From assembly GCA_022606425.2 (NCBI GenBank), contig JAHDVF020000223.1:655501-719500 (forward strand): a stretch of 64,000 nucleotides of DNA. Direction: 5' to 3'. The DNA is from Lepidostoma basale (taxonomy: Eukaryota; Arthropoda; Insecta; Trichoptera; Lepidostomatidae). This document shows positions 1,278-62,488 of this stretch, piece by piece. A program made the translations under genes and the position numbers. Every line of letters begins with the position of its first letter. Within the stretch, counting starts at the first letter, position 1. The notes under the pieces were generated by a model. It saw nothing but the letters and a program-made list of their open reading frames with translations, made no database searches and was not told the origin of the DNA.

Positions 1278-2085
1278 TCCGTAATGATTAATATTAAACT
1301 TATTGAAAGCTAAGGCATTAAAACTGTGGAATTCCATAGTAATATGCCTAGGAAACTGAAAATTAATTTGTGTATAATCCACAAAATATTTCAAAAAACG
1401 GTGTAAATATATAATTATATTTTAATTGTATCTCAATAGAGACGAAGACGTAAACTGGAAACTGAACATGGATGATCAAGGTGTTTACAGGACTTATGAC
1501 CTGTCATTGGTTGGGTTAAGCGCACGCTTTATGTAATTACAACATTCCCCATTCCACCTTTGTTATTTGTGATCATGCATGACAAATTTTTGGAAGATGT
1601 ATATATACTTCAAAATCCATATTTATCTTCACGTGGCAGTTTCAGTCAGCCATCTATGTAGATTTGGTTGCACTAGTGAATTTTTTCAAGAATTAACCTA
1701 TACAACCGACCCACTAACGCCATCTATGGAGAATGATTTTCGGCATTTAGCAAACTACCTTATTAACACAATGTGAAGGCTGTTGACCAACATATTGTTA
1801 GAAGTCGCTAGGAGTATTATTCCATTCTATATGCCAAAGAATTTTGACCAGAATATTTGAAGACCAAATATTTGTGAATGTATACCTGTATACAAATCCT
1901 GGATTTACACCAAAGGGTGGTTAATTCAAATTAAAAAATATAATTATATATTTACACCTGAAGGTGAAGGTATCCTCCGAAACATGTCGGGTTTTTTTTA
2001 ATATTTTGTGGATTATAAACAAATCTTTTTTCAATTTCCTAAGATTATTATTTTATGAAATAAAACTCTGTTGTTCCACTAAGTA
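1278..2085. repeat. Family A palindromic element, split by a family B insertion
   Basis: The left part (to about 1425) has the family A landmarks CTAAGGCATTAAAACTG and GGAATTCCATAG and ends GGTGTAAATATATAATT. The right part (from about 1936) starts with the inverted copy of that sequence and carries the hammerhead-like module CTGAAGG-T-GAAGG-TAT-CCTCC-GAAACATGTC at 1965-1996. About 510 bases, including family B sequence, separate the arms. In the other family A copies the arms are separated by about 100 bases, so this copy was opened by a later insertion. Confidence 0.65.
1424..1590. repeat. Family B MITE, single arm
   Basis: The sequence matches one arm and the central spacer of the complete family B element at 19160-19470 (TCTCAATAGAGACGAAG, then CAAGGTGTTTACAGGACTT and CATTCCCCATTCCACC). 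The second arm is missing. A fragment of the far family B end (CTGGATTTACACC) lies near 1900-1915, which suggests that internal sequence was lost or replaced. Confidence 0.7.
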
Positions 2086-7873: not shown

Positions 7874-8025
7874 TATTGTTTTGGCCGAAACACTATGATA
7901 CTTAGACATAATTAATATTTTAAATTTAAAACGCTGTTAATGGTATCATAATTATTGTTTATTTTTTATTTTTCGCGGCAGCTGTTTCGCCAATAAATTT
8001 TAGCATCATCAGGTAGTACAATATT
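7874..8025 (-). repeat. Family D repeat, single arm with hammerhead-like core
   Basis: The terminal motif GGCCGAAACACTATGATAC is followed by a core on the minus strand (7976-8012): CTGATGA, extra T, hairpin GCTAA...TTGGC, GAAA, CAGCTG, CC. The cleavage triplet GUC has become GCC, so this copy should be inactive even if the family once was active. No inverted partner arm is present. Confidence 0.6.
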
Positions 8026-11379: not shown

Positions 11380-11440
11380 GAATAAATATAGTAACACTTT
11401 GTATTACAACACTTTTTTATTTTTACTGAACTCCGACATG

Positions 11441-11641
11441 GGTTCGATTCCCAACGAGGCAGGTGTGATTGTCACACTGTCTTTGGTCTGGTGTAGAATT
11501 CACGTGACAATAAAAATGGCGATAAATTGGCTACCTAACACATGTCACGAGAATCACTATGATAGCTACCCTTTACATCGATTTGGCTCATACTGTCATG
11601 ATGTAAAGAGCGATTCAACGAAATAATAATAATAATAATAA
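11441..11641 (+). repeat. tRNA-derived SINE, 5'-truncated at box B
   Basis: Starts at GGTTCGATTCC (box B of an RNA polymerase III promoter), continues through GATTGTCACACTGTC, ATTCACGTGACAATAAAAATGG, CACATGTCACGAGAATC and ATCGATTTGGCTCAT, and ends in (AAT)n. Box A is lost. The 3' end differs from that of the copies at 55 and 60 kb, so at least two SINE tail types exist here. Confidence 0.85.
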
Positions 11642-11705
11642 TGTTTCGGTTACAAGTAACTTTAACAATGAATTCAAAATTTAAGCTAATTCAATATTGT
11701 ATTAA

Positions 11706-11737
11706 TTAATAAAGGTAATTTGTAACCGAAACATGTC
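11706..11737 (+). ncRNA. Hammerhead-like motif, family G
   Basis: TTAATAA, extra A, hairpin GGTAA...GTAACC, GAAA, CATGTC. The opposite arm has the better stem sequence GGTTAC/GTAACC. The 5' box is degraded (G5 to A), so this copy is probably inactive. Helix III ACATGT and the GUC triplet are intact. Confidence 0.5.
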
Positions 11738-11841
11738 TGAGTTCGGTAAAAATAAAAAAGTGTTGTAATACAAAGTGTAACAACAGTGTGTTCTTTTTCC
11801 CAAACCAACTTAAAAATAATTTGAAATTGTGTAAAAATAAA

Positions 11842-14645: not shown

Positions 14646-15219
14646 ATTGATATTAAATATCTGCTTAAAATATTTCAACTGTGCCACTGATATTCCTCAA
14701 AAGGTTTTATATAAAATAACGAAAACGTTTCTCGGAACTACGAATTTAATCCTTTAAAAATACTGAAACCACTGGAATAATCTGAATAACAAAATGCAAA
14801 TAGGTTTCACGAATATTTACATACACGAAACCAATCTTTGCATAAATCCTTTTGTTTCAACCATTCCACATTTATAAAAAAACTTTTACGAGAGTACTTC
14901 TGTTTATATAAAAAAGTGAGTTACTTCAGTAAATCAAAAATTTTCAACCTTTTTTTCATAAAAAATTTTCCTCTGTATTATATAAGATTTAAACATAGAA
15001 CAAACTCGTTCTTTTCGTAAATCTTATCATATCATATTTGAACTCTAAGGCTGATCTTATTAAATGTTTTACTCATCTTTTAAATAAAACTATTTGATTT
15101 TATATTAAAAATGTACAAATTAATAAATGTATAATAAAATAATAGTTAATATTTTGTCTCGGACACTCTGGCTAATTTAAATTTACACATGTTTTTTACA
15201 AACTTGGGTTTTCGTATAA

Positions 15220-15345
15220 AAACATTTTGAATGCATACAAATTCTTATAGACAATTACTGGATTTCACCCATTGCGGATAAATAATTTTTATTTTATAAG
15301 GATTAATTGTATTTCAATAGAGACGAAGATGTAAATTTTCGTATT
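15220..15345. repeat. Family B MITE fragment
   Basis: TTTGAATGCATACAAATTC, ACTGGATTTCACCCATTGCGG and TTAATTGTATTTCAATAGAGACGAAG match the far end and the start of one arm of the complete family B element. The rest is replaced by AT-rich DNA. Confidence 0.65.
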
Positions 15346-16235: not shown

Positions 16236-16439
16236 TCTTCCTGGAATATATTATATATTAAAATATTAAAAACGATTTCAACAATTATCATTTGTTGCTT
16301 CTTATGCAATGGTGTAAAACTCCATATAAAATATATGTATTATTGATGGCTGAGGTATTAGTTTTGTAAAATTATGTTACTAATTTATAATAGTAAACAC
16401 GATTGTTTAGTGGTTTTACTTGGATATAATTTATATTAA

Positions 16440-19147: not shown

Positions 19148-19159
19148 TTATCCACTGAG

Positions 19160-19470
19160 TAAATTGTATCTCAATAGAGACGAAGATGCAAATTGGAAAC
19201 TGAACATGGTTGATCAAGGTGTTTACAGGACTTATGACCTGTCATTGATCATAAGAATGGTGGAATGGGGAATGTTGTAATTACATAAAGTGTGCACTTA
19301 ACCAAACCAATGACAGGTCATAAGTCCTGTAAACATCTTGATCAACCATATTCAGTTTCCAATTTGCATCTTCGTCTCTATTGAGATACAATTAAATCAT
19401 AAATTGACAACCCGCATGGGTGAAATCCAGTATTCGTATACAAGTATAAGTATACATTCAAAAAATATTG
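19160..19470. mobile_element. Complete family B palindromic MITE, 311 bases
   Basis: Flanked by TTATCCACTGAG at 19148-19159 and 19471-19482. About 85-base arms, one at 19163-19248 and its reverse complement at 19306-19392, pair almost perfectly (TCTCAATAGAGACGAAGATG...CTTATGACCTGTCATTG). Outside the second arm lies a unique 78-base end with CATGGGTGAAATCCAGTAT, so the hairpin is off-centre. No coding capacity. The 12-base duplication is longer than usual for a cut-and-paste MITE and fits target-primed insertion better. Confidence 0.85.
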
Positions 19471-27625: not shown

Positions 27626-27639
27626 AAACATCGTTTTAT

Positions 27640-28166
27640 TTAACTTATTGAAAGTTAAGACATTAACACTGTGGAATTCCATAGTAATATACTTTGGGAA
27701 TTGAAAAACTTTGTTTAATCCACTTTTTTTTATAAAAAATATTTAAAAACACGACATGTTTCGGAGGATACCTTCAGGTGTAAAAATATAACAAAAACTA
27801 AACAACGGAAGACTAATAAAAACGCATTTAAAATTCGATACAATAATTCAAATTTAAAAGTTAACAATTTTTTGTAAATTATATTATCATCGTGTATTAT
27901 TATTATTTTATATTATTTATTATTTCTTACTGAGAAAAAATAATTGTTAGTACCTAATTATAACAAACAGCCCAGGTTAATTTTTAAATTTGAATTATTG
28001 TATCGAATTTTAAATGCGTTTTTTTTTGTCTTTCTTTGTTTAGTTTTTGTTATATTTTTACACCTGAAGATTGAGGTATCCTCCGAAACATTTGGCGTTT
28101 TTTTAAATATTTTTTATAAAAAAAAATTGATTAAACAAAGTTTTTCAATTCCCAAAGTATATCGTT
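27640..28166. repeat. Family A palindromic element, complete
   Basis: The arms 27689-27870 and 27975-28163 are near-perfect inverted repeats of about 180 bases (ACTTTGGGAATTGAAAAAC, AATTCGATACAATAATTCAA). One-sided lead sequence TTAACTTATTGAAAGTTAAG precedes the left arm. Each arm has a GAAAC module facing outward. The transcript would fold into a very long hairpin. No coding capacity. Confidence 0.85.
27753..27779 (-). ncRNA. Hammerhead-like motif, family A left arm
   Basis: On the minus strand: ACAC, CTGA, AGG-TAT-CCT, CC, GAAA, CATGTC, GTGT. The outer ACAC/GTGT can pair as helix I and ACATGT is self-complementary. The segment between CUGA and helix II is shortened relative to the 34.5 kb and right-arm copies. 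Confidence 0.5.
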
Positions 28167-32995: not shown

Positions 32996-33039
32996 TAAAA
33001 AAGTATTTGTCGACAATAAAATATAATTGCTACATAATT

Positions 33040-33201
33040 AATACGAATGAAAACGTCAGTTTTCTAGAGGTTTTATTATATTTTATGTGAATGACATGTT
33101 TCGCCCTTCTAAGGCATTATCAAAATGCCTTAGAAGGGCGAAACATGTCATTCCCATAAAATATAATAAAACTTCTAGAAAACTGACGTTTTCATTCGTA
33201 G
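33040..33201. repeat. Family C palindrome, near-perfect 78-base arms
   Basis: The arms 33040-33118 and 33124-33201 mirror each other with only a few mismatches, around a five-base centre. Each arm, read outward from the centre, contains GCCTTAGAAGGGC, GAAACATGTC and AAAACTTCTAGAAAACTGACG-like sequence. One arm keeps TTGATAA before the hairpin. The high arm identity suggests a young element or gene conversion between arms. Confidence 0.9.
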
Positions 33202-33289
33202 TAATTATTTTATATGGTGTTTTACATCATTGTTCAAAAAAGCACAATGTATGTAATTGCTACAATTTTTTGTGATTTCCGTTCTAATT

Positions 33290-34248: not shown

Positions 34249-34258
34249 TAAATCAAAT

Positions 34259-34622
34259 TTTAACTTATTGAACGCTAAGGCATTAACACTGCGGAATTCC
34301 ATATTAATATACTTAAAAAATTTAAAAACTTTGTTTAATCCACTATTTTCTAAATTACTTTTTTTTTATAATTTATTTTAAATTATCAACATGTATTATT
34401 ATTATTATTTAATATTATTTATTAGTTCTTATTGTTAAAAAAATAATTATTAGTATCTACTTATAACAAATAACACAGGCTAATTTTTAAATTTGTATTA
34501 TTGTATCGAATTTGAAATGCGTTTTTTAATTTTGTTTTTATTATATTTTTACACCTCAAGATGAAGGTATTCTCCGAAACATGTGTTTTTTAAAAAAATT
34601 TATTAAATAGTGGATTCCTAAG
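34259..34622. mobile_element. Family A element inserted in RTE-T, 10-base duplication
   Basis: Flanked by TAAATCAAAT at 34249-34258 and 34623-34632. Starts TTTAACTTATTGAACGC, then GGAATTCCATATTAATATAC, and ends with TTAAATAGTGGATTCC. It contains one module at 34553-34587: CTCAAGA, T, GAAGG-TAT-TCTCC, GAAA, CATGTG. The left arm is largely deleted. The duplication shows that family A is mobile and gives its exact ends. Confidence 0.85.
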
Positions 34623-37689: not shown

Positions 37690-37900
37690 CTATGGAATTC
37701 CAAAATGAAAATTTTTATTAAATAAAACACGTTTTTTTCATTTGTGGGTTTATTTTTCTTGACGTGTTTCGAAATCTTTATAACTTCATCATCGGGAGAA
37801 AGATGTTAACTTATTTCTTCTCTCGATGACGAATTAAAACACCGTCGAAAATAATAAACTCAAAAGTGGATTAAACAGTGTTTTAATTCGTAAAAAAATC
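37690..37900. repeat. Family F element with hammerhead-like core (37761-37795)
   Basis: Minus-strand core: TTTCT, C, CCGATGA, extra T, hairpin GAAG...TTTC, GAAA, CACGTC, A, AGAAA. The TTTCT/AGAAA flanks can form a five-pair helix I. U4 is C here as in the other F and E copies. The inverted partner CTTCTCTCGATGACGAATT lies at 37816-37840 but lacks the GAAAC box. Confidence 0.6.
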
Positions 37901-38204
37901 ATAATTAATAGATTATTGTTATATACGAGTATAAGAAACAGCAAACAGCTCATTTTAAATGCAAAATATTTCATATACAAATTAACAAAATAAATAATGT
38001 TTTTTATATTTTTCTAACTGAATGTGTAGCTTCGTTATCATACATTCTAGTTTAAAACAAAGCTGATTTTTTGGGAAGTCCATGTTTTGACTAAAAAAAT
38101 GATTTACTAAAATTATAATTATTATTATTGCTTTAATTTCTTATTGGTAATCAAACCCATCTTTAACTTAATTCACATCTTCACTGAATCGAATTTTCTG
38201 AGGG

Positions 38205-39726: not shown

Positions 39727-39953
39727 TTTAAATAAAAACACTGCTCTTTGGTTGTCACCACTATGCGGTTATTTTAATTGCCGACTAGTTTCGCTTGTAC
39801 TCAAGCTTCCTCGGAGCTTCGTAATAAAAGGTTGTAACACTTCGTAATAACTGTTATTACAAAGCCCCGAGGATACTTGGGTACAAGCGAAACTTGTCGG
39901 CAATTAAAATAACCGCATAGTGGTGAAAAACAAGGCGCCGTGTTTTTATTTTA
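39727..39953. repeat. Family E palindrome with two hammerhead-like cores
   Basis: Arms of about 95 bases: GGTTGTCACCACTATGCGG, AATTGCCGACTAGTTTCGC and, inverted, GCGAAACTTGTCGGCAATT, CCGCATAGTGGTG. Minus core 39783-39814: CCGAGGA, A, GCTTG-AGTA-CAAGC, GAAA, CTAGTC. Plus core 39867-39898: GCC, CCGAGGA, T, ACTTG-GGTA-CAAGC, GAAA, CTTGTC, GGC. GCC/GGC can form helix I. U4 is C in both. Confidence 0.8.
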
Positions 39954-41854: not shown

Positions 41855-41945
41855 CTGTTTTACAAAGATATTGTTTATTTTTATTGACATGTTTCGAAGG
41901 ATTTATTTATCGGAGGAATGATATAAACTTTTAAGTTAAGTTATT
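41855..41945 (-). repeat. Family F fragment with hammerhead-like core
   Basis: Minus core 41886-41913: CTCCGATAA, A, TAAATCCTTC, GAAA, CATGTC, AATAAAAATAAAC. G8 is A and helix II is weak. ACATGT and GUC are intact. Confidence 0.5.
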
Positions 41946-42104: not shown

Positions 42105-42210
42105 TTAAATGGTGTTTTGGTGAATTAAAACACTGTTTTTTTTTCAATTTATTTGTCTTGACATAATTCAAAGGTTTTACACCTTCAACATCGGGAGAAT
42201 AATATAAGGG
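42105..42210 (-). repeat. Family F fragment with hammerhead-like core
   Basis: Minus core 42160-42194: CCGATGT, T, GAAGGT-GTAAA-ACCTTT, GAAT, TATGTC, AAGACAAATAAATTG. Helix II is the best of the F copies, but A9 is T and GAAA is GAAT. Confidence 0.5.
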
Positions 42211-48225: not shown

Positions 48226-48373
48226 AAAGATAATAAAAACGTTTTCCAAATTTCTAGAAGATTTAATATACACATTTTGATAATACCTTAGCAAATGGAA
48301 ACAAATTATTTACATAAAATGTAATTAAAACTTCTAGAAAATAGATGTTTTCATTCTTATTCAATATTAAATA
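48226..48373. repeat. Family C palindrome, diverged
   Basis: Outer AAAAACGTTTTCCAAATTTC and AATAGATGTTTTCATTC with ATTTTGATAATACCTTAGC at the centre. The GAAAC module has become GGAAAC. Confidence 0.7.
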
Positions 48374-48399
48374 TATATTTCTGTACATAATTTTGATTA

Positions 48400-48480
48400 A
48401 TACGAATGAAAACGTTTGTTTTCTATAAAGTTAAATACATTTTATGTGAATGACACATTTCGCCTGTCTAAGGCCTCATT
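48400..48480. repeat. Family C single arm
   Basis: AATACGAATGAAAACGTTTG, AATGACACATTTCGCCTGTC, TAAGGCCTCATTT. On the minus strand GCGAAATGTGTC replaces GCGAAACATGTC. It ends abruptly at the palindrome centre. Confidence 0.7.
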
Positions 48481-49420: not shown

Positions 49421-49532
49421 AACCTCAATAAGAACTTTAAATTATTATTTTCTCTCAATAATTAGGTGCAACAAATCATATTTTCCTACCTTAATCTCAT
49501 ATGCAACCTAATGTGGTTTAATATTTATAAGT

Positions 49533-49709
49533 AATACGAATGAAAACGTCCGTTTTCTAGAAGTTTTATTATATTCTATGAGAATAACATTCCATGAGTT
49601 TCGTCTGTCTGAGGCCTAAGGCATTATTAAATGTGCCTTAGACAAGCGAAACGTGTCATTTACATAAAATATGATAAATCTTCGAGAAAACAGACGTTTT
49701 CATTCGTAT
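49533..49709. repeat. Family C palindrome
   Basis: Arms 49533-49625 and 49629-49709: AATACGAATGAAAACGTCC...TTTCGTCTGTCTGAGGCCTAAGG and GCCTTAGACAAGCGAAACGTGTC...ACAGACGTTTTCATTCGTATT. The left arm has an insertion ACATTCCATGAG beside its GAAAC box. Confidence 0.85.
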
Positions 49710-49777
49710 TTATTATTTTATAAGGAGTTTTAAATCATTTTTCAAGAATTTTTTTTTTTTAATATTGCCCGAGAAAA

Positions 49778-52165: not shown

Positions 52166-52240
52166 TGTATATATTTTTTACTGTTAAAATTTAAAAACTG
52201 TTATATATCACAATTTCCTTTTTATTTACTGAGGTGTCGC

Positions 52241-52276
52241 GACAGCTGTTTCGCCAACAGATCTTGGCATCATCAG
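52241..52276 (-). ncRNA. Hammerhead-like motif, family D left arm
   Basis: CTGATGA, extra T, hairpin GCCAA-GATCTG-TTGGC, GAAA, CAGCTGTC. All conserved core bases of a hammerhead are present. Helix III can be two pairs closing AGCT, or an eight-base palindrome joining two molecules. Helix I is not convincing in the flanks (GTAACAC/GCGACAC). Confidence 0.6.
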
Positions 52277-52305
52277 GTGTTACAATAAACAGTTTATTGT
52301 AACAT

Positions 52306-52341
52306 CTGATGATGCCAACATCGGTTGGCGAAACAGCTGTC
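52306..52341 (+). ncRNA. Hammerhead-like motif, family D right arm
   Basis: CTGATGA, extra T, hairpin GCCAAC-ATCG-GTTGGC (six pairs), GAAA, CAGCTGTC. The loop and the last stem pair differ from the left arm, with pairing preserved. Confidence 0.6.
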
Positions 52342-52363
52342 GCGACACTCAGTAAATAAAAAG

Positions 52364-53110
52364 AAATAGTGATATATAGCAATGTTTTAAATTTTAACAG
52401 TAATAATATTGAAGTATCATAGTGTTTCGGCCGAAACGATAGACTATGTATTATATATTTTTAAATACAGATGAAAACGTTTGTTTGCTTGAAGCTGTGT
52501 TATATTTAATGCGATTAACGTGTTTCTCCTTGCAAATAACATTTGATATGACTGTCATTTATATAAAATAAAATAATTTTCTTGAAATCCGATGTTTTAT
52601 TCGTAATAATCATATTAAATTCATTAAACGTATTTAGTTAATTACTTTATTTAAATGTGACGAAATCAATGTTTTAATGCACATTTTCAAGAATCCTTAA
52701 AATTAAAAAAAAAATAATACAAGGGTAGTGCATATGATAGTCGATTATTTTTTAATACCTAATCCTGAATAGATGATTTATTTTCTAAAACTTAGAGTAC
52801 AAAACTCTTACATAATGCCCAAAAATATCATTATTTATTTAATAAGAACTATTATCGCTTGTACCCGAGCTTCATTAAAGCAAAGCTTGGATATAAGCTA
52901 AACTAGTTGTTTTCAAATATAATTACAATCCATGGTTTAAATACAATGTTACGTATTACCTTTTAAATTATATATTCATAAATTTAAAAGGTAACATATA
53001 ACCACAAAGTTAGTGTCTTAAATGCAACCTTTTATTAATGGATGACTATACGAGTATGTGCCTTTTATGTCAATGATAAATAATAAATGTAAAATTTTGA
53101 TAAAATCTAT
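52364..53110. other. AT-rich sequence with a family E relic
   Basis: 52855-52915 has TTATCGCTTGTACCCGAGCTTCATT and AAGCAAAGCTTGGATATAAGC, TAAACTAGTTG, an eroded family E palindrome. Family C traces lie near 52470-52600 (GATGAAAACGTTTGTTTGC, GTGTTTCTCCTTG). Confidence 0.45.
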
Positions 53111-55161: not shown

Positions 55162-55390
55162 ATACCTTGGTATCAGAGTGGTAAAAGCTCTGATTGCTAT
55201 ACCGAAGGTCCCGGGTTCGATTTCCGGTGATGGCAGTGTTATTGTCACACTGTCTTTGGTCTGAAGTAGAATTCACGTGACAATAAAATGGCGATAGATT
55301 AGCTACATGCAACATGTCATGAGAATCAATATAATAGCCAAAAAATATAAAATACATTGATTGGGTTCAAACGCCCTGTTGTACACAAAA
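55162..55390 (+). repeat. tRNA-derived SINE, full length
   Basis: Box A TGGTATCAGAGTGGTAAAAGC and box B GGTTCGATTTCC are 30 bases apart as in a tRNA. The body contains GTCACACTGTCTTTGGTC and CACGTGACAATAAAATGG, and the 3' end GGGTTCAAACGCCCTGTTG. Dependent on a LINE for movement; the partner is unknown. Confidence 0.85.
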
Positions 55391-58217: not shown

Positions 58218-58435
58218 ACATGTGAGTGGTAAGAGTTCTGTCACACCGAAAGTCCCGGATTCGATTCCCGGCGATGGCAGTGTAAATGTCACAATTCTGG
58301 TGTAATATTCACGTAACAATAAAATGACGATAGATAAGCTACCTGTCACATGTCATGAGAATCAATATAATAGCTTAAAAGAAATTGCCTATAGTAATTG
58401 ATTTCAAACAACCTGTTGTATATAAACATTAAAAA
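58218..58435 (+). repeat. tRNA-derived SINE
   Basis: GTGAGTGGTAAGAGTTCTG (box A region, 5' end cut) and GATTCGATTCCCGG (box B), then CACGTAACAATAAAATGACG and TTCAAACAACCTGTTGTATA at the 3' end. It abuts the RTE-T copy. Confidence 0.85.
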
Positions 58436-60449: not shown

Positions 60450-60678
60450 TTGTATACAACAGGTCGTTTGAACCCAATTACTGTATACAATTTATTTTAG
60501 CTATTATATTTATTCTCATGACATGTGATAGGTAGCCAATCTATCGCCATTTTATTGTCACGTGAATTCTACACCAGACCAATGACAGTGTGACAATCAC
60601 ACTGCCATCGCCAGGAATCGAACCCGGGACCTTGAGAACGGAAGTCGGAACTCTTACCATTCAGCCACGAAGGTCGAA
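60450..60678 (-). repeat. tRNA-derived SINE, best conserved
   Basis: The minus strand begins CTTCGTGGCTGAATGGTAAGAG (box A TGGCTGAATGG) and has GGTCCCGGGTTCGATTCC (box B), TGGCGATGGCAGTGTGATTG, CACGTGACAATAAAATGG, CACATGTCATGAGAATAA and GTTCAAACGACCTGTTGTATAC. An (imperfect) cloverleaf D-arm/T-arm spacing supports tRNA ancestry. Confidence 0.9.
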
Positions 60679-61714: not shown

Positions 61715-62488
61715 CAATGCCTCACTCTTATGTGATATCATTATACAAATGATGACTGCATACATAGTGAATGCAAATACTCCTAATAAAATATATAATC
61801 CAATGTTCAACTTCGGTTAACTTTTTGTGTTGGATATTTAAGAATTCGTAGTATTGAACAACCAATTTTAAACTCCGGTTAACTTTCCGGGTTGGGTTTT
61901 CGAGAATTCGTAGAGAGTGTATAACTCCGGCTAAGTTTCTGTGTTGAATATTCGAGAATTCGTAGAGTGTTCAACAGCCAGTGTTCAACTCCGGTTAACT
62001 TTTTGTGTTGGATATTTAAGAATTCGTAGTGTAAAACAACCAATCTTCAACTGCGGTTAACTTTCCGTGTTGGGTTTTCGAGAATTCGCAGAGAGTGTAC
62101 AACTCCGGCTAAGTTTTTGTGTTGAATATTCGATAATTCGTAGAGTGTTCAACAGCCAGTGTTCAACTCCGGTTAACTTTCTGTGTTGGATATTTAAGAA
62201 TTCGAAGTATTGAACAACCGATTTTCAACTCCGGTTAACTATCCGTGTTGGGTTTAAGAGAATTCGCAGATAGTTTTTGTACCGGAGTTGTCTCCGGTCA
62301 AGTTTCTGTGTTGGATATTCGAGAATTCGTAGAGTGTTCAACATCTAGTGTTCAACTCCGGTTATCTTTCTAAGTTGAATATTCGAGTTCCTAGAGTTAC
62401 TGGTTTATATATTTTATTGGGAGTATTTGTATTCACCTTGTATACACCCATCAATTGTATAATGATATCACATAAGAGCGAGGCATTG
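61715..62488. mobile_element. Inverted-repeat element filled with a higher-order tandem repeat
   Basis: The left end CAATGCCTCACTCTTATGTG (61715-61805) and the right end, complement of CATAAGAGCGAGGCATTG (to 62488), form about 88-base terminal inverted repeats with roughly 15% mismatch by eye (GATATCATTATACAA, GAATGCAAATACTCC). The interior is the tandem array below. No transposase. Target duplication not certain. Confidence 0.8.
61803..62398. repeat. Higher-order tandem repeat, 178-187 base period
   Basis: Three related units of about 55-62 bases alternate: a (GTTGGATATTTAAGAATTCG), b (GTTGGGTTTTCGAGAATTCG) and c (GTTGAATATTCGAGAATTCG), all containing AACTCCGG(T/C)TAA. The order abc repeats from 61803, 61981 and 62160, with a final partial unit from 62347. 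The third c unit carries a 10-base insertion (ACCGGAGTTG). Confidence 0.88.

Follow-up and report, generated by a model that had tools for sequence, protein, structure and literature searches.

An inverted-repeat search of the window (the whole stretch of Lepidostoma basale DNA analyzed here, 64,000 nucleotides in length), which is AT-rich (30-38% GC per 4 kb) and harbors many dispersed repeats and reverse-transcriptase-like open reading frames (ORFs), identified 34 pairs of inverted repeats, and several of the 25 longest carry a motif resembling the hammerhead ribozyme. One of them is the insert here termed D1, where the palindrome and the two outward-facing motifs that an earlier note on this DNA had located at 52218-52363 were both found. 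The inserts and motifs on which the analysis relies are the following, with motifs accompanied by their E-value under a covariance model (R1, described below) and by whether they belong to its training set.

52179-52451, no strand: D1 insert, a head-to-head palindrome with a tailed right arm, flanked by the 11-bp repeat TATATATTTTT at 52168-52178 and 52452-52462
52298-52349, plus strand: D1 right hammerhead-like motif (5.8e-12, in training)
52233-52284, minus strand: D1 left hammerhead-like motif (3.4e-12, in training)
52405-52451, plus strand: D1 tail, reading ILKYHSVSAETID from 52406
7969-8020, minus strand: D2 motif, in a single-arm copy (2.9e-11, in training)
27639-28160, no strand: A1 insert, a palindrome with a tailed left arm, flanked by ATCGTTTTA at 27630 and 28161
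28056-28102, plus strand: A1 right motif (3.2e-11, in training)
27745-27785, minus strand: A1 left motif, with a 6-base gap (1.3e-7, not in training)
1950-1996, plus strand: A2 right motif (3.3e-12, in training)
34259-34622, no strand: A3 insert, with a shortened left arm, flanked by TAAATCAAAT at 34249 and 34623
34547-34593, plus strand: A3 motif (2.6e-9, in training)
39730-39951, no strand: E palindrome, from the inverted-repeat search
39775-39822, minus strand: E left motif (4.4e-10, in training)
39859-39906, plus strand: E right motif (3.5e-11, in training)
37753-37803, minus strand: F1 motif (4.5e-11, in training)
42152-42202, minus strand: F3 motif (1.9e-4, not in training)
41878-41921, minus strand: F2 motif, degraded (0.0071, not in training)
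33035-33253, no strand: C1 insert, its arms meeting inside the core box and its right arm tailed, flanked by TAATTGCTACA at 33024 and 33254
33088-33126, minus strand, and right arm: C1 left and right motifs (0.0097 and 0.068, respectively)
49526-49757, no strand: C2 insert, a palindrome with a tailed right arm, flanked by TTTAATATT at 49517 and 49758
11698-11745, plus strand: G motif, weak (0.074), the left arm being interrupted by a SINE-like repeat

One arm has lost the motif or carries a damaged version of it, and its partner preserves it better, in A1 (left arm, 27745-27785), A2 (left arm, 1284-1410, which is missing nearly the whole stretch between the helix I strands), A3 (left arm, 34259-34356) and F1 (plus-strand arm, 37813-37912). 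Several further repeats were recorded in the window. The tRNA-like, or SINE-like, dispersed repeat that interrupts the left arm of G has copies at 60450-60674 (minus strand), 55164-55388, 58223-58426 and 11440-11568. Family B consists of a palindrome at 19156-19399, with 92-nt arms that are 96% complementary and without a hammerhead-like motif, and of partial copies at 1415-1566 and 15303-15337. A pair of C copies at 48284-48474 is arranged tail-to-tail, the opposite of the usual orientation, and several overlapping direct repeats form a tandem-like array at 61800-62397 in the self-comparison of the window.

The layout proposed earlier, comprising a CUGANGA-like box, one extra base, a hairpin, GAAA, a self-complementary stretch and UC, had been attributed to seven unrelated families. 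It is borne out for families A, D, E and F. Family C presents only part of it, with its arms meeting inside the CUGANGA box and most of the box missing; the evidence for G is weak (E = 0.074), and K must be removed from the group, its core not being present and the family being absent from the covariance-model list up to E = 10. The repeats are probably not unrelated, and features that do not depend on the motif agree with an origin as pseudo-LTRs of Penelope-like elements (see below). The self-complementary stretch had also been described as a palindrome or near-palindrome that always ends in GUC; not every copy conforms, since the ACACGT at 37.8 kb lacks palindromic symmetry, D2 has a terminal GCC, and the A1 right arm and A3 terminate in G.

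Compared with the canonical hammerhead, both boxes (CUGANGA and GAAA) and both helices (I and II) are present, E and F carrying C at position 4. Helix II does not directly follow A9: skipping one base yields the most pairs in 10/10 window copies tested (4-5 of 5 pairs, a count that falls to 1-3 without a skip and to 2-4 after skipping two bases). The six-base stretch in the place of helix III is too short for an intramolecular hairpin, except for the eight bases of D, ACAGCTGT, in which two pairs closed by a tetraloop could serve as helix III. With its extra base after A9 and a helix III that outside D is too short to form by itself, the motif deviates in two respects that define the canonical type I hammerhead; it is hammerhead-like rather than canonical, and may nonetheless function like a hammerhead. 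The weakness of helix I in D, already pointed out in the earlier note, was also seen here.

Minimal hammerheads of Penelope-like elements (PLEs) and Terminons were reportedly described by Cervera in 2014 and by Lunse in 2017. Insofar as they could be compared, by description only and from partial accounts, these share with the motif reported here the core boxes, the two helices and a helix III that is missing or replaced by a self-complementary stretch; the present motif would differ from them by its extra base between A9 and helix II, seen in each supported copy, and, in E and F, by having C at position 4. PLE hammerheads are presented as minimal versions without helix III in two papers (PMC6155905, PMC7761336), and the hammerhead of an Anolis PLE cleaves only when the PLE protein is added (PMC11167929). 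A literature search returned no paper on a base inserted in the hammerhead core and none on hammerheads in combination with miniature inverted repeats in insects.

Statistical support for the motif comes from a descriptor scan whose score combines the core, the two helices and the self-complementary stretch, with 0, 1 or 2 additional bases permitted after A9 and before helix II. In 60 dinucleotide shuffles, the window matches exceeded expectation at scores of at least 15 (6 versus 0.4 per shuffle), 16 (4 versus 0.15) and 17 (3 versus 0.033, the best shuffle match reaching 17.1), with a descriptor composed after examples had been seen. The offset of the extra base is the cleaner part of the result: shuffle matches with 0, 1 and 2 extra bases are about equally frequent (292, 295 and 280), while the seven best window matches all have exactly one. 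One of these seven, at 14975, is AT-rich and probably due to chance. A cruder first scan had given 25 window matches against 14-24 in ten simulations, which is barely or not above chance, and the count of CGAAAC (47 versus 24-39 in 20 simulations) was discarded as evidence for being too crude to use. A search of the window with Rfam returned no hammerhead up to E = 10 and only one tRNA at the gathering threshold (60603-60674, within the SINE-like copy at 60450-60674). This silence on hammerheads was set aside because Rfam also missed the intact copy in the record L010.

The model R1 was trained on 13 sequences, comprising nine window copies and one motif from each of the records L010, L011, L008 and L022. 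It identified 37 window matches at E<=10, 13 of them at E<0.01 and belonging to families A, C, D, E and F. Four of these 13 lie outside the training set, namely 27745-27785, 42152-42202, 41878-41921 and 33088-33126, all on the minus strand, the first being the A1 left arm, whose partner arm was inside the training set. Eight further matches fall at E 0.01-1, including G, both D4 arms, the C1 right arm and M, with G and the D4 arms at 0.07-0.56. The earlier note had called for a covariation test of helices I and II, and both were found to covary. Across the 13 aligned sequences 82.1% of the cells pair, a percentage inflated by the choice of some sequences partly for their pairing, versus a mean of 59.3% when partners are re-dealt and 30-48% when the partner is slid, and the covariation score is 0.545 versus 0.147. 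Two-sided changes occur in 4/4 pairs of helix I (71% of cells paired) and in 4/5 pairs of helix II (86%); in F3, all five helix II pairs are kept with some bases unlike those of F1.

The four external sequences are a selection from 24 matches to an exact pattern in bacterial and archaeal contigs, a number near chance (estimated at about 32). L010 is the only one of the 24 with both helices, its intact motif combining a helix I of four pairs (CCCC/GGGG) with a helix II of five (GGCGT/ACGCC) and an extra base that was demanded by the search pattern. The matches in L011, L008 and L022 are imperfect and weaker, and were kept because the surrounding DNA looks eukaryotic; the L008 motif sits in one of two inverted arms. 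A further match, L023 (Shinella), has seven helix II pairs and only 1/4 in helix I. The L010 contig (1-6691), filed as a Zoogloeaceae metagenome-assembled genome, has ORFs of bacterial appearance at one end; its other end, which bears the hammerhead-like motif, looks like eukaryotic DNA, and the contig is probably chimeric. Viral contigs, searched with three patterns, gave 0, 0 and 11 matches and were rejected, the best-paired (L029 and L031, with five and four helix II pairs) failing on helix I, with 1/4 and 2/4 pairs, respectively.

Exact direct repeats of 9-11 bp flank six of the 16 elements tested (A1, A3, C1, C2, D1 and E, the repeat of E being of low complexity), and at the other ten no such repeat reaches 9 bp. 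In a re-test of 11 elements, which omitted D3, C3, K, F2 and B, repeats of at least 9 bp were found at an element's own ends in 6/11 cases versus 7/110 cross pairs, one unrelated cross pair reaching 13 bp. With insert boundaries that were placed by eye and then adjusted to the flanking repeats, one short and one longer tailed arm are seen in all four inserts in which both arms carry a cut site and can be measured between repeats. The distances from the predicted cut to the end of the short and long arm are 66 and 114 nt in A1, 58 and 104 in C1, 60 and 100 in C2 and 62 and 110 in D1, that is, 58-66 nt on one side and 100-114 nt on the other, with ends that differ by 40-48 nt. The tails also have a peptide in common. 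The pattern [ML][EK][FY][HY][ST][VI], drawn up after the peptides were seen, occurs in any frame at six window sites versus a total of six in 50 whole-window shuffles. D tails account for two of these sites and the tails of A1 and F1 for one apiece; the remaining two are in fragments, F-like at 2714 and C-like at 16325. The tails of A2 and A3 deviate from the pattern (MEFHSF and MEFRSV). The AUG at the tail peptide is, on sequence grounds, the preferred candidate for the start of a PLE reading frame, because the AUG inside the motif, a start codon suggested by work on the Anolis element (PMC11167929), opens in D1 a frame of only 15 codons, whose phase is not that of the tail peptide. The sequence AACASTGTT was observed at eight loci (27127, 35553, 37874, 39567, 41851, 42129, 43869 and 45474) versus about 0.8 expected by arithmetic; at least four of them (37874, 39567, 41851 and 42129) lie within arms of the D or F families, and it is perhaps a stem-loop near the start of reverse transcription.

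The arms of each insert were compared with each other and with other copies in the nine two-armed inserts having another copy. In four of these the identity between partner arms exceeds that with any other copy (C1, 0.96; A1, 0.96; D1, 0.95; A2, 0.84). The other five show no clear excess: C2 (0.81, versus 0.85-0.87 to C1), D4 (0.76, others reaching up to 0.76), C0 (0.71), C3 (0.68) and A3 (0.42, a value obtained from only 24 columns). The arms of E, which has no other copy for comparison, are 0.87 identical. A1 and A3 share their right half from the same inner end, and their left arms stop at different points. In view of these different stops and of the four own-partner identities, we favor an origin in which the two arms would have been copied from one RNA at insertion, either through self-priming or with each strand of the target serving as a primer.

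In a study on the rotifer Adineta, Penelope elements are described with pseudo-LTRs (pLTRs) in head-to-head inverted orientation, one of them with an optional 31-bp tail, with the first 12 codons inside the pLTR (22 with the tail), with target repeats of 8-10 bp, and with self-priming as the preferred route to the palindrome (PMC3846280). In the Anolis Poseidon element PAc, the cut lies 26 nt and the start of reverse transcription 111-118 nt past the start codon, placing the latter 85-92 nt beyond the former; cutting and extension occur on the two strands of the target alike, and a tail of 30-40 bp corresponds to the stretch between two start sites (PMC11167929). As far as these accounts can be compared, the inserts in the window resemble both systems in their head-to-head arms, single tailed arm, short and variable target repeats, AT-rich sites, minimal hammerhead and similar distances from the cut to the start of reverse transcription. 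They differ in being pairs without an ORF, in the coexistence of several families within 64 kb, in the lack of a PLE protein among the ORFs scanned and in a frame that seems to start at the tail, and not at stem II as in PAc. Because the fit to the rotifer and Anolis elements is close, the palindromes are read as PLE pLTR pairs without an ORF, and it is quite probable that they are non-autonomous pLTR copies inserted as two head-to-head cDNAs with a hammerhead-like motif. The Penelope-like origin put forward in the earlier note thus gains from the arm orientation, the flanking repeats, the tail features and the cut-to-end distances, but not from coding sequences: among 68 of the 130 window ORFs of at least 72 codons, Pfam revealed no PLE reverse transcriptase or GIY-YIG domain, and one RVT_1 domain, at 261-668, could not be placed in a clade. 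Non-autonomous copies would be expected to lack such a linked protein. Our confidence in the PLE and two-sided-insertion readings is tempered by an own-partner signal in only 4/9 inserts and flanking repeats in 6/16 elements.

Unlike the motif, the covariation, the flanking repeats, the end lengths and the tail peptide, the enzyme, the two-sided priming and the cleavage belong to a mechanism that we infer. The template would be an RNA that comprises the pLTR, the hammerhead-like motif and the initial codons of the PLE frame, and a PLE reverse transcriptase would begin to copy it internally, at either of two sites beyond the motif. The AT-rich target would be cut, one strand receiving cDNA from the nearer site and the other from the farther, "tail" site; the cDNA ends matching the 5' side of the RNA would then join centrally, and gap filling would leave the target repeats of 9-11 bp. 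Self-priming would provide an alternative route to the palindrome. The motif itself would act as a minimal type-I hammerhead-like RNA, with the self-complementary stretch in place of helix III. Its cleavage would take place in PLE RNAs, either in dimeric form or assisted by PLE protein, and not inside the palindrome transcript. A transcript of the whole D1 insert is predicted to fold as one long hairpin (-159 kcal/mol, computed), in which the motif would be buried, and the palindromes are hence more likely to be by-products of PLE copying than working ribozymes.

A palindrome that arose a single time and has since multiplied as a whole, instead of forming anew at each PLE insertion, would account for the region next to the center that A1 and A3 have in common, for the junction of C1 and C2 at the same motif position, with about 7 nt between, and for the five of nine inserts without an own-partner excess. 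It is nevertheless unlikely, since partner arms are closest to each other in A1, A2, C1 and D1, since the C1 arms are no closer to the same side of C2 (0.86 and 0.85) than to the other (0.85 and 0.87), and since the A1 and A3 left arms stop at different points, although a later deletion in A3 could explain the latter. Near-perfect palindromes with short direct repeats are also typical of foldback elements, and family B is such a palindrome without the motif, so that transposase-mobilized DNA transposons of the foldback or MITE type, resembling hammerheads only incidentally, might be invoked; target repeats that vary in length (9, 10 and 11 bp), ends that differ by 40-48 nt, a peptide common to the tails and a core and helices conserved across families render this explanation quite improbable.

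Small retrozymes, non-autonomous elements that spread as hammerhead-cut circular RNAs, likewise combine type-I-like hammerheads with small AT-rich repeats in metazoans (PMC7229834), where one axolotl form resembles the possible helix III of D, with its two pairs and tetraloop. Unlike the metazoan retrozymes described there, the motif unit forms no tandem arrays within the window: its copies are single or inverted, and no direct tandem pair was seen in the self-comparison, which makes a retrozyme origin very improbable. A chance resemblance in AT-rich repeats would agree with a crude motif count barely above simulation and with the lack of any Rfam hammerhead up to E = 10; we regard it as the least probable explanation of all, given the descriptor scan, the covariation, the covariance-model matches and the failure of Rfam to detect even the intact L010 copy. 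A retroelement of a known kind thus offers the best account of the shared layout, in preference to coincidence.

A broader proposal, which we advance only tentatively and hold to be doubtful as a whole, is that PLE insertion in this lineage is habitually two-sided, the two target strands being primed at different sites of the RNA and leaving one short and one tailed arm per palindrome, and that its ribozymes form a subclass in which an expansion by one base after A9, before helix II, is conserved in several families as well as in other records. The parts worth following are the extra base and the paired short and long ends. An expansion of one base kept across families that differ elsewhere would provide a test of how far the hammerhead core can stretch and of the need for PLE protein. 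The mode of PLE insertion, in turn, is unsettled, and small palindromes of this kind keep the cDNA ends, their junction and the target repeat in one piece; should short ends prove to be paired with long ones throughout the genome, sequence alone would suffice to test the two-strand priming that has been observed in vitro with the Anolis PLE.
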